In this document: piece by piece, positions 704 to 22,728 of the stretch
Layout of the letters: each line of letters opens with the position of its first letter
Numbering within the stretch: position 1 is the stretch's first letter
Position numbers and translations under genes: made by a program
Source of the DNA: a virus
IMG/VR virus record: IMGVR_UViG_3300005915_003986
Coordinates: 1 to 23,235 of that record
Direction: 5' to 3' (one strand)
DNA length: 23,235 bases
Notes under the pieces: model-generated
Told to the model about the DNA's origin: nothing
Database searches by the model: none
The model's input: only the letters and a program-made list of their open reading frames with translations

Positions 704-1309
704 ATGAAATACATAAACAAACACTTAGAGGAAGTTGAAGAAATAGTTAAAGGTATAAAAGGTATAGACAGAGAATCTATAGAAAATATAATTAAGATTA
801 TTATAAAGGTACGAGAAAATAAAGGGAGATTATTCTTTCTTGGCGTTGGCGGGAGTGCAGGAAGTGCTTCGCACGCAGTAAATGATTTTAGAAAAATAGC
901 GGGAATAGAGGCTTACACTCCAACAGATAATGTTAGCGAATTAACAGCGAGAACAAACGATGATGGCTGGAGTTCAGTTTTTTCAAATTGGTTAAAGACA
1001 AGCAACTTAAATAAAAATGACGCTGTATTTATTCTTTCAGTAGGCGGAGGAAATGCAGAGAAAAATATAAGTGCAAATCTTGTGGAAGCAATGAAATACG
1101 CATTAGAAGTAGATGCTAAAATTTTAGGGATTGTTGGTAGAGATGGAGGGTATACAGCCAAGGTTGCGAATGCTTGCGTTGTAGTTCCCACAGTAAACCC
1201 TCAAGCAATAACTCCTCACACTGAATCTTTTCATGGGATTATTTGGCACTTAATCGTTTCACATCCAACAATTGCAGTAAATGAGGCAAAATGGGAATCA
1301 ACAAAATAA
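704..1309 (+). CDS. gmhA: SIS-domain phosphosugar isomerase, GmhA-like (sedoheptulose 7-phosphate isomerase candidate)
   Basis: 201 aa, close to the usual GmhA length (~190). Starts after AGGAG. The phosphosugar-binding SIS loop is GVGGSAGSASHA (residues 47-58); a second phosphate-binding segment is LSVGGGNAEKN; the C-terminal helix carries HTESFHG (172-178), where GmhA has its catalytic His region. Known GmhA converts sedoheptulose 7-phosphate to D-glycero-D-manno-heptose 7-phosphate, the first step to ADP- or GDP-heptose. The acidic residue after the SIS loop is Asp61 rather than the usual Glu, so substrate is not certain. It overlaps the GmhB-like phosphatase by 19 bases, and a transaldolase lies two genes on; both support a heptose role. 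Alternative: another SIS sugar isomerase. Confidence 0.8.
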   Translation: MKYINKHLEEVEEIVKGIKGIDRESIENIIKIIIKVRENKGRLFFLGVGGSAGSASHAVNDFRKIAGIEAYTPTDNVSELTARTNDDGWSSVFSNWLKTSNLNKNDAVFILSVGGGNAEKNISANLVEAMKYALEVDAKILGIVGRDGGYTAKVANACVVVPTVNPQAITPHTESFHGIIWHLIVSHPTIAVNEAKWESTK

Positions 1310-1866
1310 AAGCAATATTTTTAGATAGGGACGGTGTAATAAATAAACCAGTATTCCACTCTGAGACAAATTGTTATTGTGCTCCAATGAAAGCTGAAGA
1401 TTTAAAGCTATATCCTTGGACTATAGAAACTTTAAAAAAGGCATATGAAAATAATTATGATTTATTTTTATTTTCTAACCAAGCTGATTACGAAAAGGGT
1501 AATTGTAAGTTTATTGATTTGTTAGAAACTCATAAATATCTTGATTCTATATTAAACGACAACGGTATAATATTTACAGATTATTTTTATTGTTATCATA
1601 AGCTAGAATCAAACTGTCATTGTAGAAAACCAAGCCCATATTTTGTAGAAACTTCAATTGAAAGATATGGTTTAGATAAAGATAGTTGTTATTTTATAGG
1701 TGATAGAGATACAGATATTGAATGTGGACAAAATGCTGGAATAAAAACAGTATTGGTAAATAGTGAAGAGACAGAATTTAGAAAAAAAGAATGTTTACCT
1801 GACTATAGGGCAGAAAACTTAAAAGAAGCAATAAACTTAATTATAAAAGGAGAAAAAAATGCCTAG
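1291..1866 (+). CDS. gmhB: HAD-IIIA phosphatase, GmhB-like (heptose bisphosphate phosphatase candidate)
   Basis: 191 aa, usual size for GmhB. HAD motifs are complete: DRDG (nucleophile Asp12 and Asp14), FSNQ (61-64), RKPSP (112-116) and GDRDTDIE (137-144). The zinc site typical of GmhB is present as C101-x-H103 and C109-x-C111. Known GmhB removes the 7-phosphate from D-glycero-manno-heptose 1,7-bisphosphate in the cytoplasm. Histidinol-phosphate phosphatases share the fold, but the SIS partner favours the heptose reading. Start at ATG 1291, inside the end of the isomerase gene, after GAGG. No heptose kinase/nucleotidyltransferase (HldE/HddA/HddC) is visible in the window, so the pathway would need outside steps. 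Confidence 0.85.
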   Translation: MGINKIKAIFLDRDGVINKPVFHSETNCYCAPMKAEDLKLYPWTIETLKKAYENNYDLFLFSNQADYEKGNCKFIDLLETHKYLDSILNDNGIIFTDYFYCYHKLESNCHCRKPSPYFVETSIERYGLDKDSCYFIGDRDTDIECGQNAGIKTVLVNSEETEFRKKECLPDYRAENLKEAINLIIKGEKNA

Positions 1867-2644
1867 TGGGACATATATTAAAACTGAAAAAAATAAACGA
1901 AATAGGAGAAAAAATAAAATGAAAAAAACAAATTCTCTAAAAGGTCGAACTTACGAAGAAATACATGGTATTGAAAAAGCAAAAGAATTAAAGGAAAAGA
2001 GAAGATTGGCAAGAATCGACTATGTTTTTCCAAAAGAAACTATAGAGAAAATCAGAAAAAGTAATACAGGCAAGCCCCATCCAACAACATCTGGGGACAA
2101 GAATCCATCAAAACGTCAAGATGTTAAAGATAAAATAAGTAAATCAAATACGGGTAAAATCAAAACAAAAAAACAAAGGCAAAATATGAGTAAGGCAGCT
2201 AAATTATCTCATAGCAAAAAAGGTTATAGAGAAAATCAAAGTAATAGTATGACAAAAAGAATTATTAATGGTGAATTTAAACCAAATACTCGATTTAAAA
2301 ATGGCTATTTTTATTCAGAATTAAACAATAAGAAAATTTGGTATCGTTCTTCTTATGAATTAAAAGCATATGAAATTTTAGATGATGAAGATTCAAAAAG
2401 TATAATAAAGTCTTGGAAAACAGAACCTTTTAAAATTCCTTATAAAAAAGATGGAGTAATAAAAAATACAGTTCCAGATATTTTAGTAAAATATAAGTCA
2501 GGAAAGAAACAATTAATAAGCGTAAAGCCTGAAAAGAGATTAAAAGAAAGAATAAATATTTTAAAACATGAAGTAATGGAAAAGTATTGCAAAAAAAATA
2601 ATATAGTTTTTTCAATTTGGACTGAAAAAGAATTAGATATATAA
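1859..2644 (+). CDS. Free-standing homing endonuclease with NUMOD3 repeats and TnsA-like nuclease domain
   Basis: 261 aa, very basic. The start overlaps the GmhB stop by 8 bases and uses AAAAGGAGA. Order: N-terminal segment beginning MPSGTYIKTE; NUMOD3-type DNA-binding repeats (IRKSNTGKPHP, DKISKSNTGKIK); then a nuclease-like domain with IWYRSSYELKAYEIL, EPFKIPY and VPDILVKYKSGKKQLISVKP. The pattern RSSYE...PD...K resembles TnsA-type PD-(D/E)XK endonucleases found in phage homing genes. This family differs from the genes at 11416 and 13102. It sits between two sugar-metabolism genes and does not visibly interrupt either. Function inferred from motifs. Confidence 0.75.
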   Translation: MPSGTYIKTEKNKRNRRKNKMKKTNSLKGRTYEEIHGIEKAKELKEKRRLARIDYVFPKETIEKIRKSNTGKPHPTTSGDKNPSKRQDVKDKISKSNTGKIKTKKQRQNMSKAAKLSHSKKGYRENQSNSMTKRIINGEFKPNTRFKNGYFYSELNNKKIWYRSSYELKAYEILDDEDSKSIIKSWKTEPFKIPYKKDGVIKNTVPDILVKYKSGKKQLISVKPEKRLKERINILKHEVMEKYCKKNNIVFSIWTEKELDI

Positions 2645-2662
2645 AAATAAAAGGAGAACAAA

Positions 2663-3364
2663 ATGAAAATTAAAATTTATGGAGATGGTGCAGATTTGAA
2701 AAGCATATTAAAAGCAAGAGATGAAGGTATTATTGATGGGGTGACAACAAATCCCACTCTTATGAAAGCAGCTGGAATTAAAGATTATGAAAAATTTGCA
2801 AAAGAAGTATTAGAAAAGATAACATTATTACCAATATCATTTGAAGTATTTTCTGACGATTTTGAAAATATGGAAAGAGAAGCAAAAATTATTAATAGTT
2901 GGGGAGATAATGTAAATGTTAAGATTCCTATAACAAATACTAAAGGTGAGTCTTCAATACCTCTAATTGAAAAATTAATTAAAGAAGGAATTAAATTAAA
3001 TGTAACAGCAATTTTCACAATAAAACAATTAGAAGAACTTAAAGAAGTTATTGATTACAATGATAGTATTATTCTTTCAATATTTGCAGGAAGAATTGCA
3101 GATGCTGGAATAGATCCAATGCTTATTGTAAAAAAAGCAAGACAAGAAATATTCAGTATGCATGACAATGTTGAAATCTTATGGGCTTCTACAAGAGAAG
3201 TATTAAACATAGTTCAAGCAGAAGAATGTGGTTGTGATATTATTACAGTGACTTATGATATACTTAAAAAATTACCAAGTCTTGGTAAAGATTTAACTGA
3301 ATTTTCTCTCGATACTGTAAAAATGTTTTACAATGACGCTAAAGAAAGTGGGTTTAAGATATAA
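2663..3364 (+). CDS. tal: Transaldolase / fructose-6-phosphate aldolase family (TalC/FSA type)
   Basis: 233 aa, the short transaldolase subfamily (~220 aa). Motifs: GVTTNPTLM (26-34), NVKIP with the Schiff-base Lys87, LNVTAIFT, FAGRIADAG and LWASTRE. Class I aldolase TIM barrel, cytoplasmic. Known reaction of transaldolase: transfer of a C3 unit between fructose 6-phosphate and erythrose 4-phosphate, giving sedoheptulose 7-phosphate; FSA members instead form fructose 6-phosphate from dihydroxyacetone. Sequence alone does not separate these. Sedoheptulose 7-phosphate is the GmhA substrate, which fits the gene group. Cyanophages carry related talC genes for pentose phosphate flux. Start follows AAAAGGAG. 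Confidence 0.88.
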   Translation: MKIKIYGDGADLKSILKARDEGIIDGVTTNPTLMKAAGIKDYEKFAKEVLEKITLLPISFEVFSDDFENMEREAKIINSWGDNVNVKIPITNTKGESSIPLIEKLIKEGIKLNVTAIFTIKQLEELKEVIDYNDSIILSIFAGRIADAGIDPMLIVKKARQEIFSMHDNVEILWASTREVLNIVQAEECGCDIITVTYDILKKLPSLGKDLTEFSLDTVKMFYNDAKESGFKI

Positions 3365-4101
3365 TGCCTCGTATACATTGCCATTTTCTTGCAAAAAATG
3401 AAGGAAGAATATTACCATATTTCTTTAAACATTACGATCAATATGTTACTCAATATTTTGCGTATTTCAATACTACTTCTAAAGATGGAACTCGTGCTTT
3501 TTTAGAAAGCAAACCAAATGTTACAATTATTAGAGACAATTATCCAAAATTAGATGAACGAGTTTTAATTTTAATGAAGAATGTTACTTGGATGAAATAC
3601 TCAAATCCGAGTAATTGTGATTGGGTATTTCTCTTGGATACAGATGAAATATTGTATAATCCAGATTTATTAGGGTTACTAAAAAAATATGATGAAGAGG
3701 GAGTAAACTTTCCGCAAGTTAAAGGCTACCAAATGTTTAATGAAGAGTTCCCAACAGAAGATAAGCAAATTTGGGAATTAATAAAAAAGGGAATAGAATA
3801 TCATCCTTACAACAAACAAGTAGTTTTAAAACCAAATATAGCCCCTAATTATTCCTATGGATGTCATTTTTCGAGTCCAACAGGCCCGGAAATAAAAACA
3901 AGTGAAAATATAGATATAAAATTACTACACTATAAAATATTTGGAGAGGCATATGTACAAGAAAGAATGGATTTACAAAAAACATTAAGTGCCTTTAATA
4001 TAGCAGTGGATTGTGGCACATACAGCTTAGACCCAAATAGCCGTTGGAATCCAAAAACAGAATTAGAAAAAATAAGAAAGGAAGCGAAGGAAGTAATATG
4101 A
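3364..4101 (+). CDS. Glycosyltransferase, family 2-like (Glyco_tranf_2_4 type)
   Basis: 245 aa. Begins MPRIHCHFLAKNEGRILPYF, the opening strand of a GT-A fold, and has the metal-binding DxD as LLDTDEIL (Asp92, Asp94). Further shared blocks are NCDWVF, YNPDLLGLL and VKGYQMF. It is homologous to the C-terminal half of the next gene and to the gene at 5984, forming a local paralogue group. Start overlaps the transaldolase stop (TAATG). Donor and acceptor are unknown. Lacks membrane segments, so it probably acts in the cytoplasm on a nascent glycan or on phage protein. Confidence 0.8.
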   Translation: MPRIHCHFLAKNEGRILPYFFKHYDQYVTQYFAYFNTTSKDGTRAFLESKPNVTIIRDNYPKLDERVLILMKNVTWMKYSNPSNCDWVFLLDTDEILYNPDLLGLLKKYDEEGVNFPQVKGYQMFNEEFPTEDKQIWELIKKGIEYHPYNKQVVLKPNIAPNYSYGCHFSSPTGPEIKTSENIDIKLLHYKIFGEAYVQERMDLQKTLSAFNIAVDCGTYSLDPNSRWNPKTELEKIRKEAKEVI

Positions 4102-5984
4102 GAATAATTTCTAAAATGAAATTAATGTTAAATTGGAAATCAAATGGCGTAAGATATTCTTTTGAACCAAATGTTGAATATGAAGTATCAGAAGCTGTGT
4201 ATCGATATTTAACCTTTAAATATGGGGATAAATTTGAATTAAAGGAACTAAAAAGGGAAATAATAGAAGGAAAGCTAGAAGAAGAAAAAGTAGTAGAAGA
4301 AAAAGTAGATAATTTAAGGAATTATTTTACAAAGCCAAATATGAAAACAGATGAAATTTTGTGGACTATTGGAATTGTTAATTACAAATCTCTTTCTTTT
4401 ATGGAATATCAATTAAAGTCTTTATATTATTTTAATTCTTTACCATTTAAACTTATAATTGTGGATAATTCTATCCCCTCTGAAATGCAAAAGTTGAAGA
4501 AACTTTGCAAAGGTTATGCTAATGTAACTATTATAAAAAGTAATTCAAAAGAAATTCCAACAAGTAGTCAACATTCCGAAGGATTAAGTAAAATTTTAGA
4601 TATAGTAGACACAAAATATCTGCTAATAAATGACCCTGATTTTTTCTGGGTCCAAAAAGAATATTTATATACTCTTCAAAAAATCTTTGAAGAGGGATAT
4701 GTATGCGTAGGAGCACCATGGTTTACAGCAAATCCGGAATTGAAAGATACAACTCCTGTTTTGTGGGGGTGTGCCTATGATACTAAAATTTTAGAGAAAA
4801 GCGATTTTTATTCTCATGAAGGTGAGAGTAAAGAAAAAATATTTAAAATGGTTTCAGAAGGAAAGGATACAGGATGGAAGTTAAGAGAAAAATTTAAACG
4901 AGAAAATCTAAAAACATTTTCCTTTGGTGATAAATTTGGGATATCTATACCAAATGAGTTTGACCAAGGTATTAAACATTTTTCTACAAATATGTATGAT
5001 TCAAAAATAGGAACAACAGCAAAAGACATTCATGAATATTCATATAATGGGAAAATAATTGCATATCACCTACAACATGGCTGTCATGAAACAGAAAGTT
5101 CTTTTCCTTCATTAGGACAAAGAAGAAAGGCACCGGCAATTTGTGGATGGACAAATGTAAGAAATAAATATAAAGACTTTTTTTATAATATATTATCAAA
5201 GGAAAAAGAAATAAAGCCCTTAGAGATTCATTTACATTTTCCTGTTAAAAATGAAGAAAGAATTCTCCCATACTTTTTTAAACACTATGATAAATATGTT
5301 ACTAAATATTTTGCGTATTATAATATTCATTCGACTGATGAAACTTTAGAAATTCTAAAATCAAAGCCAAGTGTTACAATTATACCAAAAAAGAATACTC
5401 AAGTAGATGACAGGATATATAGAGATATAAAAAACTATGAATGGAGAGAACATTCCACTGTGAAAAACTGCGATTGGGTAATAATTTGCGATTCAGATGA
5501 GTTTCTATATCATCCAGATTTACTAGGACTGTTGAATTCTTATGATGAAAAGAGAATCAATTTACCAAAAGTTAAAGGATATCAAATGTTTGCAGAATTT
5601 TTTCCAATTGATAAAGAAAAACAAATATATGATATTATAAAAAATGGGATAAAAAAGGAAGCTTATAATAAATATGTACTAATGAAACCAGATGTTTGGC
5701 CAGAATTTTCTTATGGAGCGCATTTTATGTGTCCCGGATCTTTAAAAGGGATAACATTTAGTGATGACTTAGAGATAAATAATGTTGAGAAAGCTAAGCT
5801 AAAATTATTGCATTTTGCCATTTTTGGAGACGATTTTATAGATAAAATGTTTGAGAGGCAAAAAAATATGTCAGAATTTAATTTAACTTTTGGTTTTGGA
5901 ATTTATAATCTAAATGAAGGTAGTATTTGGAATCCAGAACAAGAATGTATAACAATTAGGAATACAAATGATAAAGTAATATAA
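4098..5984 (+). CDS. Two-domain glycosyltransferase fusion
   Basis: 628 aa. ATG at 4098 is chosen over the earlier in-frame ATG at 4044: it gives an ATGA overlap with the upstream stop and has AAGGAAG just before it. Domain order: short N-terminal segment (MRIISKMK to about residue 47, with EYEVSEAVYRYL); a GT-A-like domain from about 83 to 350 with LLINDPDFFWVQK (Asp179, Asp181), homologous to the whole gene at 12236; then from about 373 a second GT domain with HLHFPVKNEERILPYF and CDSDEF (about 465-469), homologous to the genes at 3364 and 5984. A short acidic/Lys-rich linker (EEEKVVEEKV) separates the first two parts. This suggests two successive sugar transfers by one protein. Substrates unknown. 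Confidence 0.8.
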   Translation: MRIISKMKLMLNWKSNGVRYSFEPNVEYEVSEAVYRYLTFKYGDKFELKELKREIIEGKLEEEKVVEEKVDNLRNYFTKPNMKTDEILWTIGIVNYKSLSFMEYQLKSLYYFNSLPFKLIIVDNSIPSEMQKLKKLCKGYANVTIIKSNSKEIPTSSQHSEGLSKILDIVDTKYLLINDPDFFWVQKEYLYTLQKIFEEGYVCVGAPWFTANPELKDTTPVLWGCAYDTKILEKSDFYSHEGESKEKIFKMVSEGKDTGWKLREKFKRENLKTFSFGDKFGISIPNEFDQGIKHFSTNMYDSKIGTTAKDIHEYSYNGKIIAYHLQHGCHETESSFPSLGQRRKAPAICGWTNVRNKYKDFFYNILSKEKEIKPLEIHLHFPVKNEERILPYFFKHYDKYVTKYFAYYNIHSTDETLEILKSKPSVTIIPKKNTQVDDRIYRDIKNYEWREHSTVKNCDWVIICDSDEFLYHPDLLGLLNSYDEKRINLPKVKGYQMFAEFFPIDKEKQIYDIIKNGIKKEAYNKYVLMKPDVWPEFSYGAHFMCPGSLKGITFSDDLEINNVEKAKLKLLHFAIFGDDFIDKMFERQKNMSEFNLTFGFGIYNLNEGSIWNPEQECITIRNTNDKVI

Positions 5985-6814
5985 TGAGAATACACGTTCA
6001 TGCAATGATTTGGAATGAAGAAAAAATGTTACCTTATTTTTTAAGACATTATGAAACATTTTGTGAAAAAATATTTATTAGAGTATTTCCATCTACTGAT
6101 AAAACTCTTGAAATAGCCAAAAATAACTCTAAAGTTGTTTTGCTTGAGCCTGAGTGTACATTTTCTAAAGATTTAAATAAATATAATTTAAAAGATCAAA
6201 TGAAATTTAAAAACGAAGAATGGAAAAAATATTCAACATCTGAAAACTGTGATTGGGTAATACTTGCAGATTGTGATGAGTTTATATATCACTCAAATAT
6301 TGTAGATTTATTATCTATATACACAGAAAAAGGAATAACTTTTCCAAAAATTCTTGGATTTCAAATGTATTCTGAAAAGCCTCCATCAACAAATGGTCAA
6401 ATATATGAAGAAATAAGAAATGGCTATCCAATGGCAGAGTATTCAAAAAGGGCAGTTTTGCATCCAAATATAATTCCTCGTTATACACCCGGATGCCATA
6501 GTTGTAATCCTAACTCTAGTGGAGAAGTTGTTGAAAGTTCGCAAAAAGAAATAAAATTATTTCATTATTCAAAACAAGTATGGAGTAGAGATGAGTTATT
6601 AGATTTTTGGATAAAAAAAATGAAAAGAATAGCTCCTGAAAAAAATAAAGGTATACCAGACGAAAAATTTTATATTTACGCTTTTAATAGTTTATATAAT
6701 TTATACAATTTGACTATCGGAAACTATATGAGGTATATAAATGAAAATAATGTTGATAGAGGAATTCCCTATTTTGATGTTGTAGAGGATAATATTAATA
6801 AAGGAGGAAAATAG
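5984..6814 (+). CDS. Glycosyltransferase, family 2-like, paralogue of 3364
   Basis: 276 aa. Same family as the gene at 3364 and the C-terminal half of 4098: opening strand MRIHVHAMIWNEEKMLPYF, NCDWVILADCDEF with DxD at Asp96 and Asp98, and ILGFQMYSE. Its ATG shares a base with the previous stop (TAATG), implying translational coupling. The C-terminal 70 residues (after KLFHYSKQVW) extend beyond the paralogue and may bind the acceptor. Substrate unknown. Confidence 0.78.
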   Translation: MRIHVHAMIWNEEKMLPYFLRHYETFCEKIFIRVFPSTDKTLEIAKNNSKVVLLEPECTFSKDLNKYNLKDQMKFKNEEWKKYSTSENCDWVILADCDEFIYHSNIVDLLSIYTEKGITFPKILGFQMYSEKPPSTNGQIYEEIRNGYPMAEYSKRAVLHPNIIPRYTPGCHSCNPNSSGEVVESSQKEIKLFHYSKQVWSRDELLDFWIKKMKRIAPEKNKGIPDEKFYIYAFNSLYNLYNLTIGNYMRYINENNVDRGIPYFDVVEDNINKGGK

Positions 6815-7380
6815 TGAGTAGATTTATAAAACAAAATAGCAGTGATGAATATAATGTGTATCCAAAATTATGGGATACCTTGTTAAAAGATTTTGATATT
6901 AAATCTGTTATTGATATTGGATGTGGAAAGGCATTAGCGTTAAAGTATTTTAAAGAGCGAGGATGTGATATTGAGGGAGTAGAATTTTGGAAACCTTCAA
7001 TAGAAGAAAGTCCTGTAAAAGAGTTTATAACACATCATGATTACGAAATTGCTTCTTATTCGCCTAATAAAATTTATGATTTAGCTTGGTGTCATGAATT
7101 TGTTGAACACGTTGATGGGGAATTTGTTAATAACTTTATAGAAACATTTAAAAAATCTAAGATGATTATTATGTCTCATGCAGTCCCTAATCAACCTGGG
7201 ATAAATCATGTAAATTGCCAAACAGATGAATATTGGATTGATTTAATGACAAAAAATGGATTTAGTTATGATGATCTTATATCTAAAAAATTAAGAGAGA
7301 TAGCAAAACAAGAAAAAGATTTTAATTATTTTTCTCCAAGTGGACTAGTGTTTTTTAATAATTTAAAGGAAGTGGAATAA
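6814..7380 (+). CDS. SAM-dependent methyltransferase (class I)
   Basis: 188 aa. GTG start at 6814 shares a base with the preceding TAG and sits just after AAAGGAGG. SAM-binding motif I is VIDIGCGKA (32-40); GVEFW carries the acidic end of strand 2; LAWCHEFVEHV corresponds to motif II/post-II of Methyltransf_11/23-type enzymes. Lying between glycosyltransferases in a coupled run, it probably methylates a sugar or an amino-sugar intermediate, as in O-antigen clusters, but the acceptor cannot be read from sequence. Confidence 0.8.
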   Translation: MSRFIKQNSSDEYNVYPKLWDTLLKDFDIKSVIDIGCGKALALKYFKERGCDIEGVEFWKPSIEESPVKEFITHHDYEIASYSPNKIYDLAWCHEFVEHVDGEFVNNFIETFKKSKMIIMSHAVPNQPGINHVNCQTDEYWIDLMTKNGFSYDDLISKKLREIAKQEKDFNYFSPSGLVFFNNLKEVE

Positions 7381-8159
7381 TGATTATAAGTAAAATTTAT
7401 GGAGGAGTTGGGAATCAAATTTTTATGTATGCAATGGGATTATCTCAAGCTAGAAGATTAAATGTAGAGTTAAAATTAGACATAGATATTCTTATATATA
7501 ATCCTTTTCATTATACCCCTTATGATTTCGAGTTAGTACATTTTAATGGGATGAGCGAAGAGATTGTAACAAAATCAAGTTTACCGGTTGTTAATGAGGG
7601 ATCCTCGCATCAATATAAAGATTATGACGTACAAGACAATCATATTTTAGATGGTTATTGGCAAAGTGAAGAATTTTTTGAAAGTATAAAAGACGAATTG
7701 AGAGAAAAATTAATCTTTAGGAAAGAATCTATAAAAAATCTAGATCAAAGTATTGTTGAGGAAATAAAAAATTCAAATTCTGTTTTTATTCATGCTCGTA
7801 GAGGGGACTATTTAAATGGAGATTATTTTGTAGATTTATCTAGTACAGAATATTATCAAAAAGCAATAAATATAATATTGGAAAAAGTAGAAAATCCTAA
7901 GTTTTTTATATTTTCAAATGATGAAATATGGGCAAGAAATTATTTCGCATTTATTAATCAAGATAAGTCTTTTTTAAGAAACAATACAATAGAGGATTTA
8001 TATTTAATGAGTTTGTGTAAAAATTCGATTATTGCAAATTCGTCATATAGTTGGTGGGGAACGTGGCTAGGTAATAAAGAAATAATAATTCAGCCTAAGA
8101 AATGGACAAAAATAAGAGATCTTGACAATTTGAAATTAAAAAATAGTATTGTAATTTAA
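7380..8159 (+). CDS. GT11 family glycosyltransferase (alpha-1,2-fucosyltransferase-like)
   Basis: 259 aa. Hallmarks of GT11: N-terminal GGVGNQIFMYAMG (8-20), GYWQSEEFF, the GDP-sugar binding HARRGDYL (138-145), a late FSND, and NSSYSWWGTWLG. Known members move L-fucose from GDP-fucose onto galactose in O-antigens and Nod-like glycans. Somewhat short for the family (usually 280-300 aa). The neighbouring GDP-fucose-synthase-type gene and ColD-like gene supply possible donors, GDP-fucose or GDP-colitose. Starts on the last base of the methyltransferase stop (TAATG). Confidence 0.88.
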   Translation: MIISKIYGGVGNQIFMYAMGLSQARRLNVELKLDIDILIYNPFHYTPYDFELVHFNGMSEEIVTKSSLPVVNEGSSHQYKDYDVQDNHILDGYWQSEEFFESIKDELREKLIFRKESIKNLDQSIVEEIKNSNSVFIHARRGDYLNGDYFVDLSSTEYYQKAINIILEKVENPKFFIFSNDEIWARNYFAFINQDKSFLRNNTIEDLYLMSLCKNSIIANSSYSWWGTWLGNKEIIIQPKKWTKIRDLDNLKLKNSIVI

Positions 8160-8171
8160 AAGGGAGAAAAA

Positions 8172-8303
8172 ATGGATAAATCGACATTTGATGAAAATAT
8201 AAAGCGTTTTATCGAGGAGAATAATCAAAAAAAGAGGTTTGATTCAATAGGAGAGGAAATGGTTAAGGAAGAATATGAGAAAATTATACAAACAATTATT
8301 TAA
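8172..8303 (+). CDS. Small acidic/basic protein of 43 aa, unknown
   Basis: Begins MDKSTFDENI after AAAGGGAGA and ends at TAA 8301, overlapping the start of the epimerase gene by 29 bases. Predicted fully helical and charged (E/K-rich), no Cys, no membrane segment. It fills the only gap in an otherwise coupled run, and the SD of the next gene (AAGGAAG) lies inside it, so it may serve mainly to couple translation. I do not recognise a family. Confidence 0.5.
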   Translation: MDKSTFDENIKRFIEENNQKKRFDSIGEEMVKEEYEKIIQTII

Positions 8304-9237
8304 TAAGAACAAAAAAATATTAATAACCGGGGCAACTGGAATGGTTGGATCTGCCTTATATAAAAAATTAACAGATCAAGGATTTAATAATATAATAGCA
8401 CCAGGAATTAATTATTCTAGACGTGATTTAACAAATGAAACGGAAGTAAAAGATTTAATATTAGGTAAAAAACCAGATTATGTATTTATGCTTGCTGCTA
8501 AAGTTGGTGGAATACAAGCAAATATAGATAATCCTGTTAAATTTTTAGACTCAAATTTAAGAATAAATATAAATGTTTTTAAATATTGCAACGAAGCAAA
8601 AGTAGAAAAATGTTTATTTTTAGGTAGTTCATGTATTTATCCAAAAGAATGTAAACAACCAATGAAAGAAAAATATTTGATGAGTGGTCCCTTAGAAGAT
8701 ACAAACGAAGGATATGCTCTATCTAAAATAGTGGGATTAAAATTAGCACAATACTATTATACTCAATATGCAATGAAAACTGTTTGTCTTATGCCTTGTA
8801 ATGTATATGGGACTGGAGACAATTATGATTTAAAAAATTCACATGTACTTTCTGCTTTAATAAGGCGATTTGTAGAAGCTAAAAAATCAGGGAAAAGAAA
8901 AGTTACTCTTTGGGGTACGGGAACTCCTAGAAGAGAATTTATGCATGTAGGTGATGTTGTAGATGCAATGATTTATTTATTTCCAAAAATAGATTCACCA
9001 GAAATTGTAAATATTGGAACAGGTAAAGATTTAACTATAAGAAAGCTAGCTCAAACAATTGCAAAAGAAGTAGGATATAAGGGTAAAATAGAATGGGATA
9101 TTACAAAACCAAATGGAATGATGAAGAAGTGTTTGGCTGTAAGTAAAATGAAAAAATTAGGATTTAACCCACAAATATACTTAGCAGAAGGAATACGTAG
9201 AAGTGTAAAAGAATATAGGGAGAAATGTAATGGATAA
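8275..9237 (+). CDS. fcl: GDP-L-fucose synthase-type NADPH epimerase/reductase (Fcl or ColC)
   Basis: 320 aa, standard length. Rossmann motif GATGMVGS (19-26); family signature LGSSCIYPKECKQPM (from 116); catalytic Ser/Tyr/Lys with Y147-x3-K151 in GYALSK; YGTGDNYD and RREFMHVGD further on. Known Fcl takes GDP-4-keto-6-deoxymannose to GDP-L-fucose; ColC is a homologue acting on the 3-deoxy product of ColD to make GDP-L-colitose. The adjacent ColD-like gene (8-base overlap) makes either possible. The upstream dehydratase Gmd is not in the window and would have to come from elsewhere in the phage or from the host. Start ATG 8275 follows AAGGAAG. Confidence 0.88.
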   Translation: MRKLYKQLFNKNKKILITGATGMVGSALYKKLTDQGFNNIIAPGINYSRRDLTNETEVKDLILGKKPDYVFMLAAKVGGIQANIDNPVKFLDSNLRININVFKYCNEAKVEKCLFLGSSCIYPKECKQPMKEKYLMSGPLEDTNEGYALSKIVGLKLAQYYYTQYAMKTVCLMPCNVYGTGDNYDLKNSHVLSALIRRFVEAKKSGKRKVTLWGTGTPRREFMHVGDVVDAMIYLFPKIDSPEIVNIGTGKDLTIRKLAQTIAKEVGYKGKIEWDITKPNGMMKKCLAVSKMKKLGFNPQIYLAEGIRRSVKEYREKCNG

Positions 9238-15030: not shown

Positions 15031-15105
15031 GCCTTGCTAGTATAACGGTTATTATAGTTGACTTGTAATCATCAGATCTAGGTTCGATTCCTAGGCTCGG
15101 CTCCA
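15031..15105 (+). tRNA. tRNA-Thr (TGT)
   Basis: 75 nt with encoded CCA. Anticodon TGT at 15064-15066 in loop CTTGTAA; T arm CTAGG/CCTAG with TTCGATT loop. Acceptor GCCTTGC against GCTCGGC has two adjacent mismatches (T-C, T-T), and the anticodon stem has one T-T; the D stem is 3 bp. Discriminator T. Still an acceptable tRNA, slightly degraded. Confidence 0.85.
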
Positions 15106-15382: not shown

Positions 15383-15458
15383 GGGGTGTTAGCTCAGTTG
15401 GTAGAGCATCTGCCTTGCACGTAGAGGGCCGAGAGTTCAAGTCTCTCACGCTCCACCA
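15383..15458 (+). tRNA. tRNA-Ala (TGC)
   Basis: 76 nt including CCA. Acceptor GGGGTGT/ACGCTCC (two wobble pairs), D stem GCTC/GAGC, anticodon stem TCTGC/GTAGA with loop CTTGCAC (anticodon TGC), T arm GAGAG TTCAAGT CTCTC. Canonical. Confidence 0.95.
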
Positions 15459-15463
15459 AAAGT

Positions 15464-15538
15464 GGCTTTATGGTGTAACGGCTAGCACGGCAGATTGTCG
15501 ATCTGTAAGTTAGGGTTCGATTCCCTGTAAGGCCGCCA
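15464..15538 (+). tRNA. tRNA-Asp (GTC)
   Basis: 75 nt including CCA. Acceptor GGCTTTA/TAAGGCC, anticodon stem GCAGA/TCTGT, loop TTGTCGA (anticodon GTC), T loop TTCGATT, discriminator G as expected for Asp. Canonical. Confidence 0.95.
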
Positions 15539-15542
15539 AAGC

Positions 15543-15618
15543 GGGGCTGTAGGCAAGCGGTCAAGCCACTTGCTTTTCAAGCAAGGTATCACAGGTTCAA
15601 ATCCTGTCAGCCCTACCA
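15543..15618 (+). tRNA. tRNA-Glu (TTC)
   Basis: 76 nt including CCA. Acceptor GGGGCTG/CAGCCCT, anticodon stem CTTGC/GCAAG, loop TTTTCAA (anticodon TTC), T arm ACAGG TTCAAAT CCTGT. Body and D arm (GCAAGCGGTCAAGC) look more like tRNA-Gln, and the discriminator is A rather than the usual G of Glu; identity is called from the anticodon. Confidence 0.9.
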
Positions 15619-15630
15619 AAATTGAAATAT

Positions 15631-15726
15631 AATTCAGTGGCGAAAGTTAGACGCTAATCCTTATGAGATATGGTTAAGGGTTTATAAGAAACCATATCGT
15701 GCAGGTATCGAGTCCTGTCTGAATTT
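15631..15726 (+). tRNA. Leu-type tRNA-like element with non-canonical anticodon region
   Basis: 96 nt, no encoded CCA. Acceptor AATTCAG/CTGAATT pairs 7 of 7; D stem GCG/CGC and the phrases GTGGCGAAA, TAGACGC and GTGCAGG match class II tRNA-Leu. The anticodon region does not form a 5-bp, 7-loop arm. Options: AATCC/GGGTT with a 17-nt loop; or a perfect 9-bp hairpin GATATGGTT (15667-15675)/AACCATATC (15690-15698) as a giant variable arm, leaving only 12 nt for the anticodon arm. The T loop has one extra base (TATCGAGT) and the D loop lacks a G. Probably decaying or atypical. Confidence 0.5.
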
Positions 15727-15734
15727 AATAATGT

Positions 15735-15811
15735 TGCGGAGTAGAGAAGTGGTCCATCTCGTCTGGTTCATACCCAGAAGAACACGAGTTCAAATCTCGT
15801 CTCCGCTACCA
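15735..15811 (+). tRNA. tRNA-Met (CAT), initiator-like
   Basis: 77 nt including CCA. Anticodon CAT at 15769-15771, stem TCTGG/CCAGA, T arm ACGAG TTCAAAT CTCGT. Initiator traits: positions 1 and 72 are T and T (unpaired) above six good acceptor pairs; pair 11-24 is A-T; D arm GAGA/TCTC as in bacterial tRNA-fMet. The three G-C pairs of the anticodon stem are reduced to two (29-41 is T-A). tRNA-Ile(CAT) is less likely with an open 1-72 pair. Confidence 0.85.
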
Positions 15812-16143: not shown

Positions 16144-16217
16144 GCTCGATTCGTATAATAGAAGTACGTCTCTTTTACACGGAGAAAGCGGAGGAGCATA
16201 ACCTTCATTGGGTACCA
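16144..16217 (+). tRNA. tRNA-Val (TAC)-like, without canonical elbow loops
   Basis: 74 nt with encoded ACCA. Every arm pairs: acceptor GCTCGAT/ATTGGGT 7 of 7 (three wobbles); D stem GTAT/GTAC; anticodon stem TCTCT/GGAGA with loop TTTACAC (anticodon TAC at 16176-16178); variable AAGC; T stem GGAGG/CCTTC. T8 and A14 are kept. But the D loop is AATAGAA (no GG) and the T loop AGCATAA (no TTC), so the usual D-T elbow contacts cannot form. Discriminator A fits Val. Standard tRNA models would probably miss it. Confidence 0.55.
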
Positions 16218-16310: not shown

Positions 16311-16387
16311 TGGTGAGCGTAGTGTAAGGGTTAGCACACTAATCTGTGGAATTAGTAGAATGAGTTCAAATCTATCTGCAGCAACCA
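16311..16387 (+). tRNA. tRNA-His (GTG)-like, mismatched acceptor
   Basis: Anticodon arm CTAAT/ATTAG with loop CTGTGGA (GTG at 16346-16348) and D stem GTG/CAC are perfect; T loop TTCAAAT and ACCA end are present; a G precedes the first base as in tRNA-His. However the T stem pairs only 2 of 5 and the acceptor strands do not match: GTGAGCG at the 5' side would need CGCTCAC, but the 3' side reads TGCAGCA. The 3' 16 nt look replaced. Confidence 0.6.
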
Positions 16388-17622: not shown

Positions 17623-19587
17623 CAGTAGCACTGGATTAGTTTCATGGTCCAGTATAAATTCCTTAAATTGCGGGAATATCCTTAGAGCATTTAATACAAA
17701 ACAATAAAACCTTAAATGGTTTAAGTTGAAGGTAAAAATTTAAATGATTGGACAATCCGCAGCGAAGCTCGAAAGAGAACGTTCAACGACTATAATAGGA
17801 ACTACATAGTAGATGGGATAGTCTGATCTTTATAGAGATATAAAGCTAACAAAAAAATGATAGGAACTATGAATATTGTTGCCGCAAGAACGGATGACGG
17901 AAAAACAATTTTTCGAAGAGAAAGAGATATTTTTGTTGAACTTCCAGCAGAATCAAATGATGCTAAAGCATTCTTAGATATGGCTGGTGCAAAATTAGTT
18001 ACCTCGGGAAATAAAAATTATGTTGTAGGTGAAGAAGCAATGAATTTTGCTTCTTTTTTAGATGTAGAATTTAAAAGGCCATTGAAAAGTGGTTTGATTA
18101 ATCCCCATGAAGAAGATACAGCAATTCAAATGTTGGATATAATTATAAAAAGTGTTTTAGATAAACCAAGATACGAAAATGAAACATGCGTTTTTTGTAT
18201 TCCAGCCGAACCAATTGATGATACAAGAAATGTTTCCTATCATCAAAAAACATTAGAGTATTTAGTTAAACGTGCTGGATTTACTCCAAAAGCGATTAAT
18301 GAAGCAACAGCTATTATATATTCAGAATTGCAAAACAATTCACTTTCAGGTATTGGAATTTCTTTTGGTGCAGGTATGATTAACTTAGCTTGTTTAAGAG
18401 GTGATACAAAAATTCCATTATTGAGTGGAGAGACAAAAACAATTAAAGAATTATCTGATTTAGGTCCAGATAATGAATTTTGGGTTTATTCTTGTAGAGA
18501 AGATGGGCAAATTGTCCCAGGAAAAGCTTGGAATGCTCATAAAAAGCAAGAAAAAAAGGAAATTATAAGATTGTGGTTTGACAATGATGAATACCTAGAT
18601 TGTACAAGAGATCATAAAATAATGATGAGAGATGGAACATATAGAGAGGCTCAAGATTTAAAAGAAAAAGACTCTTTGATGCCCTTATATACAGAAATAG
18701 CATCCAAAGAAAATAAGTATACTAAAAATTATGCTAGAGTAAAAAATAATAAAACGAATCGATGGAATTTTATACATCGGTTAGTTTCAAGTTATTTTGG
18801 AGAAATCAAAAAAGGTGAAGTAATTCATCATAAAAATTTTAACAAGTTAGATAACTCTCCAGATAATTTATTGGTTTGTACAACAGAAGAGCACGGAAAA
18901 ATTCACAAAAGAAAAATTAGTAAAACTTTGAAATCAAAATATGAAAGTGGAGAATTAATATCATCAAATCAATATACTAAAAATGAATTAGAATTAGTTT
19001 TACATAATCATAAAGTTAAAAGAATAGAAAAATTAAATATTGTAGAAGATGTTTATGATATAACAGTAGAAAAATATCATAATTTTGCTATAGATTCTGG
19101 GATTTTTGTTCATAATTGTACATGGAAAGGCTTCCCAGTATTTTCTTTTAGTATAGGGAGAAGTGGAGATTGGATTGATGAACAAGTAAAACAGGCGTCT
19201 GGTAAAACAGCTGCCGAGATTACTGGCATTAAAGAAACAGAACTTGATTTAACGGTAGAAGGTGAAACAAGAATTCATAGATATTTAAAGGGATATTATG
19301 AAGAACTAATGGATTATTTAATTAGAAATATAATTAAAAAATTTGAAGTAAGTAAAATAAATTCAAAACTTAGTAAAAAAAGTAGCCAAGCAGAAGCTCT
19401 ACCAATTGTTGTAGCCGGAGGAACTTCAATACCAAAAGGCTTTGCAGAAATGCTAAGAGATAGAGTTGAAAAATCTGATTTTCCTTTTAAAATTTCAAAA
19501 ATCATAGTAGCAGCAGATCCTTTATATACAGTTGCAAAAGGGCTAGCTAAATATGGTGAAGTACAAGTTAAAAGTCAAATAAATTAA
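17619..19587 (+). CDS. Actin-like ATPase, split by group I intron and intein
   Basis: Exon 1 (17619-17636) codes MTVALD; exon 2 (17860-19587) begins ATA GGA ACT. Joined, they read MTVALDIGTMNIVAA, the phosphate-1 loop of actin/ParM ATPases; unspliced, a TAG follows codon 6. After removal of the 242-aa intein the protein is about 339 aa, ParM-sized. Phosphate-2 loop is GISFGAGMINLA-C; adjacent blocks include CVFCIPAEP, GFTPKAINEATAIIYSE, FSFSIGRSGDWIDEQ and the adenosine region VVAGGTSIPKGFAEML. Known relatives form filaments for plasmid segregation or cell shape; a phage one could position genomes or replication centres. Both invaders lie in ATP-binding loops. SD for this copy: AAAAGGAGA. Confidence 0.85.
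17637..17859 (+). mobile_element. Group I intron (223 nt) in the actin-like gene
   Basis: Core elements are readable: P-like AAATTGCGGGAA (17665-17676) pairing with Q-like ACAATCCGCAGCGAAGC (17752-17768) through GCGG/CCGC (P4); R-like GTTCAACGACTA (17781-17792) and S-like GATAGTCTGATC (17817-17828), with GACTA/TAGTC as P7. P1 is exon CTGGAT (17631-17636) with guide GTCCAG (17647-17652), ending in the required U-G pair at the 5' splice site. The intron ends in G17859. Splicing restores LD|IGTMN. No frame inside the 223 nt; the endonuclease is upstream. Confidence 0.9.
18391..19116 (+). mobile_element. Intein with HNH endonuclease domain
   Basis: 242 aa inside the actin-like protein. Block A starts at Cys (ACLRGDTKIPLLSGETK); block B is CTRDHKIM with the T-x-x-H motif; block F DVYDITVEKYHNFAI; block G IFVHN followed by extein Cys (codon 19117). 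Between B and F lies an HNH homing domain: FIHRLVSSYFGEIKKG, EVIHHKNFNKLDNSPDNL, EEHGKIHKRK. Removal joins GAGMINLA to CTWKGFP. All splice residues (Cys1, block-B His, terminal His-Asn, +1 Cys) are present, so it is probably active. Confidence 0.92.
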
Positions 19588-20306: not shown

Positions 20307-20445
20307 AAATTGCCCGTGTACAATTGATTGTATAAGGCATGGAAAATGTTCAGAATGTCGGGCCTTTCATAAAAAAAATGGTGGAACACCTGCTTGTAAA
20401 AAAGTAAGGATGACAAAAAAGATTAAGGCAGGTGAAAAAATATAA
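20287..20445 (+). CDS. Small Cys-rich probable zinc-binding protein
   Basis: 52 aa from TTG 20287 after AGAGGAAGAG. Cysteines at CPCTIDCIRHGKCSECRAFH and PACKK form the C-x-C-x3-C-x2-HG-x-C-x2-C pattern of small uncharacterised bacterial proteins (RHGNC-x2-C type). It ends TAATG, sharing a base with the RRM gene. The TTG start is uncertain; no ATG exists before the Cys cluster. Confidence 0.6.
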   Translation: MGKKINKNCPCTIDCIRHGKCSECRAFHKKNGGTPACKKVRMTKKIKAGEKI

Positions 20446-20696
20446 TGACTAACAAACTATACGTAGGTGGAATCGCTTATGCTACCGAAGAAGATACATT
20501 GAAAGATGAATTTGCTAAGGCTGGTAATGTTCAATCTGTAAAAATAATTATGGATAGAGATACTGGAAAATCCAAAGGATTTGGATTTGTAGAAATGGAA
20601 ACCGAAGATGAAGCGAAAGCAGCAATTGAAATGTTCCATGAGAAAGAATTAGATGGTAGAACTATTAGAGTGAATGAAGCGAGACCACAGAGATAA
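20445..20696 (+). CDS. RRM RNA-binding protein
   Basis: 83 aa, a single RRM. RNP2 is LYVGGI (5-10) and RNP1 is KGFGFVEM (44-51), with the aromatic residues used for RNA stacking; the fold ends RTIRVNEARPQR. Nearest type is the single-RRM proteins of cyanobacteria and other bacteria, themselves resembling eukaryotic glycine-rich RNA-binding proteins, but without the Gly tail. In a phage it could bind its own intron-bearing transcripts, tRNA precursors or host mRNAs; this is inference. A terminator follows directly. Confidence 0.9.
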   Translation: MTNKLYVGGIAYATEEDTLKDEFAKAGNVQSVKIIMDRDTGKSKGFGFVEMETEDEAKAAIEMFHEKELDGRTIRVNEARPQR

Positions 20697-21299: not shown

Positions 21300-21448
21300 A
21301 AAATTATAAAACTGGAGTATACAAAACAATCTATGGAAATGCTTGTTATTATATAGAAGGTGATACAGAGGTAGAAGATTTAGATATGAGAAAGGAAATA
21401 TCAATTGAGATGGTAGATTTTTCTAAATTTATAAGAGAAGAGCAATGA
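21296..21448 (+). CDS. 50-aa protein, unknown
   Basis: Begins MKNYKTGVYKTIYGNACYYI and ends KFIREEQ. ATGA overlaps join it to the genes before and after, which strongly supports it as real despite its size. Acidic centre (EGDTEVEDLD). Its position directly before topoisomerase IB suggests co-expression. No motif recognised. Confidence 0.65.
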   Translation: MKNYKTGVYKTIYGNACYYIEGDTEVEDLDMRKEISIEMVDFSKFIREEQ

Positions 21449-22728
21449 AAAATTTTACAATAAAGCGTTATAAAAAAGATGGAAAAAAGATGATTCCTGT
21501 TAGGGTTAAAGATGGAATATGGGTTGAACCCCATTCAGAAGAAGAATATAATAAAAATATAGAAGCAAATAAACTTAAAGATAAACAAAGTAAGTTTATG
21601 TACTATCCTGGTACAAAAGTTCCCCATATTCACTACATGGAAGCTAAAAAGTATGATAAGTATGGTTATCTTTCGGGTGGACCAATGCCTTGGTGTAAAT
21701 TGGAAACAATTGAAACAAATAAGGAACTACTTGCGACAGAAGGCCTATATGAAAAATTAGCACAGGCAGAAAAGGATGATGACAAGGAACAGCTTAGATT
21801 TTTAACAAGACCATTATTAGTTTGGATAGATCCTTGTACAGGAAAAAAGAATGGCGTATATGCTCAAGCTGTAACTATTACAAATAGAAATAATAAGTCA
21901 AATTATGTATATAAAAATCTTGATAGATTCGAACAAGCTGTCAAGGACCTTGAAACACTATATTTAGAAAAAAGAATAAGTACTAAAACTGGAATATGTG
22001 CTCTTATAAATCTACTATCTTATAAATTAGCATTTAGAGTTGGTAATAATGAAAATCCTAAAAGTGGTGTTGGAGTAACAACATTTAGAATACAACATAT
22101 AGAATTTGAACAAGATTATAACAATAAAAAGGTTCAATTCAAATTTAAAGGAAAAAAAGGTGTTCAATGGAATAAAACTTTAAATCCTAAAAATGAATTA
22201 GAAGAATGTATGGTAAAAGATGTAAAAGAATTATGGAATATTTATTATAATTGTCCTTCTGGATTTTTATTTCAGTGGGGTGGAAAAAGAATAACAAGTG
22301 CTGATGTAAATGAATTGTTTAGAAAAATATTAAAAGTTACTCCAGATGAAGAATTATATCTTTCATTTCATAGCTGGAGACATTATTTAGCTTCGAAAGC
22401 TTTTTTGAAAGAATTAGATAAAATTAAGATAAAAAAAGATATTAAGAAGATTGAAGAAAAAAATGATATTAACTCTACCATCAGAAAAGGTAGATTAATT
22501 ACAAGAGAATTAAATAAAGTATTTAAAAAAGTATCAAAAGTATTAAATGATACTCCAGGAGTTGTCTCTAGTACCTACGCAGGTGGAAAAATATTTAGAG
22601 ATTTTTATAATAAATATGGTGTAGAATTTGATGAGAAGAAAAGATCTTGGAGTAAAGAAGCTCATAGTGATGAAGTAGAGGCTGAAAAAGAAAGAAAAGA
22701 GCAACGTAAAATTAAAAAGGAAATTTAA
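21445..22728 (+). CDS. DNA topoisomerase IB (viral/bacterial type)
   Basis: 427 aa, longer than poxvirus enzymes (~314). Catalytic set: Arg in KLAFRVGNNENP; Lys in FKFKGKKGVQW; Arg in SFHSWRHYLAS; Tyr378 in NDTPGVVSSTY, matching the TopIB L-x-NTPAV...Y ending. It relaxes supercoils by a 3'-phosphotyrosine nick. The box around the second Arg (HSWRH) looks more like a tyrosine recombinase H-x-x-R-H than typical TopIB, but the RVGN-x-E block and the -DTP- region favour TopIB. N-terminal 100 residues have WCKLETIETNKEL and LLVWIDPCTGKK. The long charged tail after Tyr378 (49 residues) is unusual. Confidence 0.82.
   Translation: MKNFTIKRYKKDGKKMIPVRVKDGIWVEPHSEEEYNKNIEANKLKDKQSKFMYYPGTKVPHIHYMEAKKYDKYGYLSGGPMPWCKLETIETNKELLATEGLYEKLAQAEKDDDKEQLRFLTRPLLVWIDPCTGKKNGVYAQAVTITNRNNKSNYVYKNLDRFEQAVKDLETLYLEKRISTKTGICALINLLSYKLAFRVGNNENPKSGVGVTTFRIQHIEFEQDYNNKKVQFKFKGKKGVQWNKTLNPKNELEECMVKDVKELWNIYYNCPSGFLFQWGGKRITSADVNELFRKILKVTPDEELYLSFHSWRHYLASKAFLKELDKIKIKKDIKKIEEKNDINSTIRKGRLITRELNKVFKKVSKVLNDTPGVVSSTYAGGKIFRDFYNKYGVEFDEKKRSWSKEAHSDEVEAEKERKEQRKIKKEI

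Follow-up and report, generated by a model that had tools for sequence, protein, structure and literature searches.

The 23,235-base IMG/VR virus record IMGVR_UViG_3300005915_003986 (positions 1 to 23,235; hereafter the window), which bears phage-type genes, carries a gene for a valine transfer RNA, tRNA-Val(UAC), whose elbow is recoded and not absent. In this tRNA G19-C56 is kept, G18-U55 is exchanged for A18-G55, and U54-A58 is exchanged for A54-U58. The G18-psi55, G19-C56 and U54-A58 contacts are textbook near-invariants of tRNA; gene finders build on them, and RNase P, T-boxes, the ribosome and modification enzymes read them. Our reading, to which we give a probability of about 70%, is that the gene encodes an intact phage tRNA of a large exchanged-elbow class, the members of which would be chargeable, decoding reserve tRNAs that evade factors reading the standard elbow.

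The gene occupies positions 16144..16217 of the plus strand and encodes its own CCA end. Segment by segment, the RNA reads GCUCGAU UC GUAU AAUAGAA GUAC G UCUCU UUUACAC GGAGA AAGC GGAGG AGCAUAA CCUUC AUUGGGU A CCA. With wobbles counted, all 21/21 stem pairs form: 7/7 in the acceptor stem (GCTCGAT/ATTGGGT), 4/4 in the D stem (GTAT/GTAC), 5/5 in the anticodon stem (TCTCT/GGAGA) and 5/5 in the T stem (GGAGG/CCTTC). T8, A14, T33 and A73 are kept, and the anticodon TAC (16176..16178) lies within the loop TTTACAC. The gene scored 38.4 bits against Rfam RF00005 (gathering cutoff, 29; E = 5.5e-5). ARAGORN, run on the window, did not call a tRNA-Val at 16144-16217, and minimum-free-energy folding of the single RNA was uninformative (z = -0.54). 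The D loop AATAGAA (16157..16163) places A18 at 16160 and G19 at 16161, where a canonical elbow has G18 G19; 205 relatives share this AG. The T loop AGCATAA (16195..16201) contributes A54, G55, C56, A57 and U58 and is part of the T arm GGAGG-AGCATAA-CCTTC (16190..16206). Thus, the first-pass annotation correctly described the complete cloverleaf and both loops. Its further statement that the bases locking the elbow are lacking holds for positions 18, 54, 55 and 58, whereas G19 and C56 are present and the altered pairs are exchanged with covariation. The pairing of A18 with G55 and of G19 with C56, which defines the recoded-elbow class, is found in this tRNA.

Relatives were collected by several searches. 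Searched for exactly, the T arm was found again in a tRNA-Ile(UAU) of another phage contig (L038). A blast search returned an unannotated tRNA-Val of Streptomyces phage Coruscant (84509-84583) with the T loop GGCAGAA; in blast searches with single tRNAs as queries, Coruscant was the only full match among named phages. A degenerate pattern that left the D loop unconstrained gave 17 matches of tRNA quality, of which 15 lie in viral contigs or the window itself, one lies in Coruscant and one in a bacterial bin; all 17 carry AG instead of GG in the D loop. A pattern that also used the D loop matched at least 119 stretches. Together, 83 tRNAs had one of two T loops, AGCAUAA (n = 44) or GGCAGAA (n = 39). 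Equally permitted by the pattern, the mixed loops AGCAGAA and GGCAUAA made up 41 of 82 non-tRNA matches and occurred in no convincing tRNA. Two weak mixed-loop candidates that passed the stem filter, L052 and L066, were judged to be chance matches; neither has a tRNA-like D arm, and ARAGORN finds no tRNA in L052.

A covariance model built from 64 of these tRNAs, together with a search of 81 loci, recovered a wider set of recoded T loops, among them AGCGUAA, AGCAUUA, AGCGUUA, GGCAGUA and GGCGGUA. The first seed pattern had fixed G50-U64 and AA at positions 59-60, a bias that was removed by the R1 search and a loop-blind cloverleaf scan. Because the scanner relies on nothing but the stems, U8 and U33, it avoids detector bias. 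It yielded 838 distinct tRNAs and five matches on reversed sequence, which excludes a chance cloverleaf. In total, 205 to 207 distinct recoded tRNA genes were found, mostly from uncultivated phages and covering all 20 amino acids. Their loops recur at about 70 independent loci at which the stems covary freely. Separately, a near-identical non-tRNA stretch, AAAAAAGGGGGCGGGGCAGAACCCTCACCCCCTTGAGG, recurs in twelve phage contigs that hold no tRNAs (L045, L047, L051, L060, L062, L068, L075, L078, L081, L082, L084 and L089).

The loop-blind set showed how the elbow pairs change together. For pairs 18-55 and 19-56, only 7-nucleotide D loops were counted, in which positions 18 and 19 are unambiguous. 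The 18-55 combinations were G-U (160), A-G (123), G-C (8) and A-C (2), with every other combination at zero; the single-step intermediates A18-U55 and G18-G55 are thus absent from these loops. The 19-56 pair was G-C in 281 tRNAs, A-U in six, C-G and U-A in one each, and something else in four. At 54-58, counted in all tRNAs, we found U-A 637, A-U 86, G-G 83, A-A 12 and C-A 10 times, with about 10 others. Where U55 is combined with a base other than C56, 24 of 28 tRNAs have G18 and, directly after it, a base that forms a Watson-Crick pair with base 56. Intermediate loops that retain U55 (GUCAGUA, AUCGUAA and AUCGAAA) go with GG in the D loop, and those with G55 and a retained A58 (UGCAAUA, UGCGACU and CGCAAUA) go with AG. 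Pairs 18-55 and 54-58 thus change separately. The two recodings co-occur strongly, with an odds ratio of 17.5 when the seed loops are excluded. When A18 in the query was changed to G18 (ATAG to ATGG) and all of IMG/VR was rescanned, 46 stretches matched and none of the 37 checked was a true tRNA; the A18 query had given 57 true tRNAs among 86. Thus, a compensating exchange of elbow tertiary pairs across a large tRNA class is well supported: 18-55 goes from G-U to A-G, 54-58 goes from U-A to A-U or G-G, and 19-56 is kept or becomes another Watson-Crick pair. The relatives with compensating changes that the first-pass annotation had suggested looking for therefore exist, and its comparison with mitochondrial tRNAs, in which elbow bases are lacking, does not hold.

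Isotype identity elements are conserved in the class. G3-U70 is present in 12/12 recoded Ala tRNAs and in 0/195 of other isotypes. The discriminator fits the isotype as in canonical neighbors, with G73 in Asp, Asn, Trp and mostly Gln, U73 in Cys and mostly Gly, and A73 in Ala, Ile, Val, Leu, Met and Pro; for Val, A73 is found in 17/17 recoded and 30/30 canonical tRNAs. CCA is encoded in 153 of 207 genes. Of 90 recoded tRNAs in 20 phage genomes, 85 offer an anticodon that the canonical tRNAs of the same phage do not, and ARAGORN overlooks 45. Because identity elements are conserved and otherwise missing anticodons are filled, we infer that host synthetases charge the recoded tRNAs and that these take part in ribosomal decoding. 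Often (56 cases), the body closest to that of a recoded tRNA belongs to a canonical tRNA of matching isotype, so the switch to the recoded elbow happened repeatedly. A single clonal origin through T-arm copying, an idea raised by the tRNA-Ile in L038, was rejected: T stems vary freely, as do the bodies, and the nearest neighbors include these canonical tRNAs.

In the named phages sampled, most elbows are canonical. Two A18-G55 tRNAs (Val and His) occur in Coruscant; Asterius, Atuin, DLP_6 and Bobbio show exchanged 54-58 pairs and no A18-G55. A54-U58 with a normal G18-U55 was seen in the cultured phages Asterius (L290:11311-11460), Atuin (L291:12489) and DLP_6 (L292), isolates that allow one half of the recoding to be put to the test. 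We also sampled 288 genomes of Verrucomicrobiota, the phylum of a Limisphaerales bin with recoded tRNAs, and found strong recoded matches in eight. Chromosomal arrays of recoded tRNAs lie at L264, L265, L266, L267 and L268. In three genomes checked for other tRNAs (G293, G121 and G221), these were dispersed over the genome. The G293 array has G55 in 10/10 tRNAs, compared with U55 in 20/20 sampled host tRNAs, and the G121 array has G55 in 20/20. None of 348 Bacillota and 349 Pseudomonadota genomes had a recoded match at E = 1e-11, which indicates rarity and not absence, as the fast search evaluates only a few candidates in each genome. In a Limisphaerales bin, a weak phage-integrase-like gene (L269:10475-11971) adjoins two recoded-type Gln tRNAs.

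The genes beside the Verrucomicrobiota arrays include RlaP, Band_7, AAA, RNA ligase and RtcB genes. All eight array genomes contain RlaP, versus 30/280 others, a comparison uncorrected for kinship among genomes. One phage cluster rich in recoded tRNAs (L231) contains genes for a CCA-adding enzyme, Thg1 and Band_7, and another (L244/L245) contains genes for Band_7, TROVE/Ro60 and an anti-Pycsar protein. In two phages rich in recoded tRNAs, the RNA-repair setting seen beside the bacterial arrays is present in part. TROVE is not specific to recoded clusters, because it is also found beside canonical ones (Atuin and Alone3). Given that recoded arrays adjoin RNA-repair genes in bacteria and tRNA-maintenance or Ro/Band-7 genes in phages, the suggestion of the first-pass annotation that such tRNAs evade tRNA-cutting defenses or modification enzymes is a sensible hypothesis.

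In the mechanism that we propose, the exchanged contacts would hold the elbow, so that the L shape is retained, while the bases used by elbow-reading agents would be gone. Such agents may be tRNA nucleases or toxins, or the enzymes for m5U54, pseudouridine-55, Gm18 and m1A58; m5U54 and psi55 cannot form, and G18 and A58 are missing in most recoded tRNAs. The recoded tRNAs might then survive or mature independently of elbow-reading factors and, less certainly, might be a reserve set held for an attack on the normal tRNA pool. The recoding may serve to escape damage or to make the tRNAs independent of modification, or it may bring no benefit, as under compensatory drift. Several observations weigh against the reading of evasive reserve tRNAs. 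The rate of nonredundant anticodons (85/90) is little above the canonical baseline of 365/409, and in many phage clusters recoded tRNAs stand side by side with canonical ones. RlaP lies on a different contig from the array in G209, G212 and G221, although RtcB or RNA ligase is nearby, and the sampled arrays may be related, so that the RlaP association is not fully independent. Anticodon nucleases cut away from the elbow; with clusters mixing both elbow types, no single elbow-specific enemy is evident. A stronger version is tentative, and we would sooner bet against it: that phages and some bacterial chromosomes have a parallel set of fully chargeable tRNAs whose elbow code (A18-G55 and exchanged 54-58/19-56 pairs) is orthogonal, and that this set was selected by a widespread tRNA-damaging or tRNA-sensing defense reading the standard elbow. 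If true, this set would sustain translation while the defense destroys normal tRNAs.

Compensatory drift would dispense with any evasion benefit: under weaker selection on elbow modification and recognition in phage and reserve tRNAs, the changes would be neutral. The several independent solutions at three elbow pairs fit this explanation, as does the finding that clusters contain both types of tRNA, which act alike as one nonredundant set. However, A18-U55 and G18-G55 are missing although two changes are required, the 18-55 and 54-58 exchanges are strongly associated, and entire arrays of 10 to 20 genes are uniformly recoded beside canonical hosts. Together with the adjacent repair genes, these observations favor selection and make drift rather unlikely. 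That bases recognized by many tRNA partners are lost (elbow-reading factors are described in PMC4810234) could also point to a nontranslational role, as a tRNA-like decoy, sponge, regulatory RNA or nonribosomal amino-acid donor like the staphylococcal cell-wall tRNA-Gly; the presence of all 20 isotypes with the right discriminators, G3-U70 in Ala, normal anticodon loops and nonredundant anticodons argues for decoding and renders such a role improbable. A decaying pseudogene or assembly error, which the decayed-looking His-like copy next door and the oversight by ARAGORN might bring to mind, is refuted by the fully paired stems and by the conservation of identical loops at the independent loci.

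The tRNA cluster of the window spans about 15.0-16.4 kb. ARAGORN and Rfam identified five canonical tRNAs on the plus strand: tRNA-Thr(UGU) at 15031..15105, tRNA-Ala(UGC) at 15383..15458, tRNA-Asp(GUC) at 15464..15538, tRNA-Glu(UUC) at 15543..15618 and tRNA-Met(CAU) at 15735..15811. A His(GUG)-like element at 16317-16387 has intact D and anticodon arms and unpaired acceptor and T stems; at 27.9 bits, below the Rfam cutoff, it is probably a decayed copy. At 15631-15726 lies a Ser/Leu-like candidate of 96 nucleotides with a perfect acceptor stem (AATTCAG/CTGAATT), an 8-nucleotide anticodon loop (TGAG as read by ARAGORN), an 8-nucleotide T loop and a D loop without GG. No RNA-repair genes were recognized in the window. 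A Volactin-family actin gene split by an intein with an HNH nuclease, seldom seen in phage collections, lies at 17857-19587. Two uncultured phage records (485 and 595 kb) hold its tblastn relatives, and the window is thus probably a fragment of a large phage. The same segment encodes a eukaryote-type topoisomerase IB (21445-22728), which found no relatives when used as a query, and an RRM RNA-binding protein (20445-20696). A sugar pathway block at 704-9237 contains SIS isomerase, HAD phosphatase and transaldolase genes and, judged by eye from translations, several glycosyltransferase-like open reading frames and a GDP-fucose-synthase-like epimerase. No strong recoded tRNA was found in the closest relative of the window by the Volactin gene (L002/G001) or in the huge phages LR745208 and LR756511, so the orthologous position of tRNA-Val was not traceable in them.

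A natural class that spans all 20 isotypes and keeps the contacts while changing the bases means that the elbow can be recoded. The genes that ARAGORN misses explain why phage tRNA counts are underestimated. Recoded tRNAs are natural designs for orthogonal tRNAs and give a direct way of asking which cell factors read the elbow, and through the RNA-repair link the long-standing question why tRNAs occur in phages becomes testable.

The class was apparently undescribed before. The literature on noncanonical tRNAs and the elbow, as searchable in open-licence papers, covered tRNA-Pyl, mitochondrial and initiator variants and not A18-G55 recoding. The Anabaena trn operon, a tRNA set induced by translational stress (PMC10272220), and units of mycobacterial tRNA arrays resemble the recoded arrays as second clustered sets beside housekeeping tRNAs. 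The texts consulted on these sets do not mention elbow recoding. Phage tRNAs that counter PrrC/RloC, PARIS or retron Eco7 are proposed to replace damaged host tRNAs (PMC10264068 and PMC11555353); the escapes described there act via the anticodon loop or supply, with no mention of the elbow, whereas in the recoded class the elbow itself is changed. The canonical tRNA-Val(UAC) of KVP40, VH7D and Bobbio matches the tRNA-Val of the window in cloverleaf, A73 and CCA, with a nearly identical anticodon arm and D stem. These canonical copies have G18 G19 and the T loops CTCGATT/TTCGATT, in contrast to A18 and AGCATAA. Vibrio and Dickeya phages contain tRNA-Val(UAC) bodies that closely resemble it but have canonical loops. 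Eukaryotic initiator tRNA-Met has an altered 54-58 pair, A54-A58 (PMC7912444), but keeps the rest of the elbow and does not exchange 18-55. Like recoded tRNAs, tRNA-Pyl uses a nonstandard contact between the D and T loops, without G18G19 and the T-psi-C sequence (PMC7609411). It differs in having a 5-nucleotide D loop, a single linker base between acceptor and D stems, a longer anticodon stem and a CUA anticodon; the tRNA-Val of the window has a 7-nucleotide D loop, two linker bases, a 5-base-pair anticodon stem, the anticodon UAC and a kept G19-C56. In type II mitochondrial tRNAs, the elbow consensus is not conserved (PMC7609411) and the contact between the D and T loops is lost, whereas in recoded tRNAs 18-55 and 19-56 covary and the contact is exchanged pair for pair.
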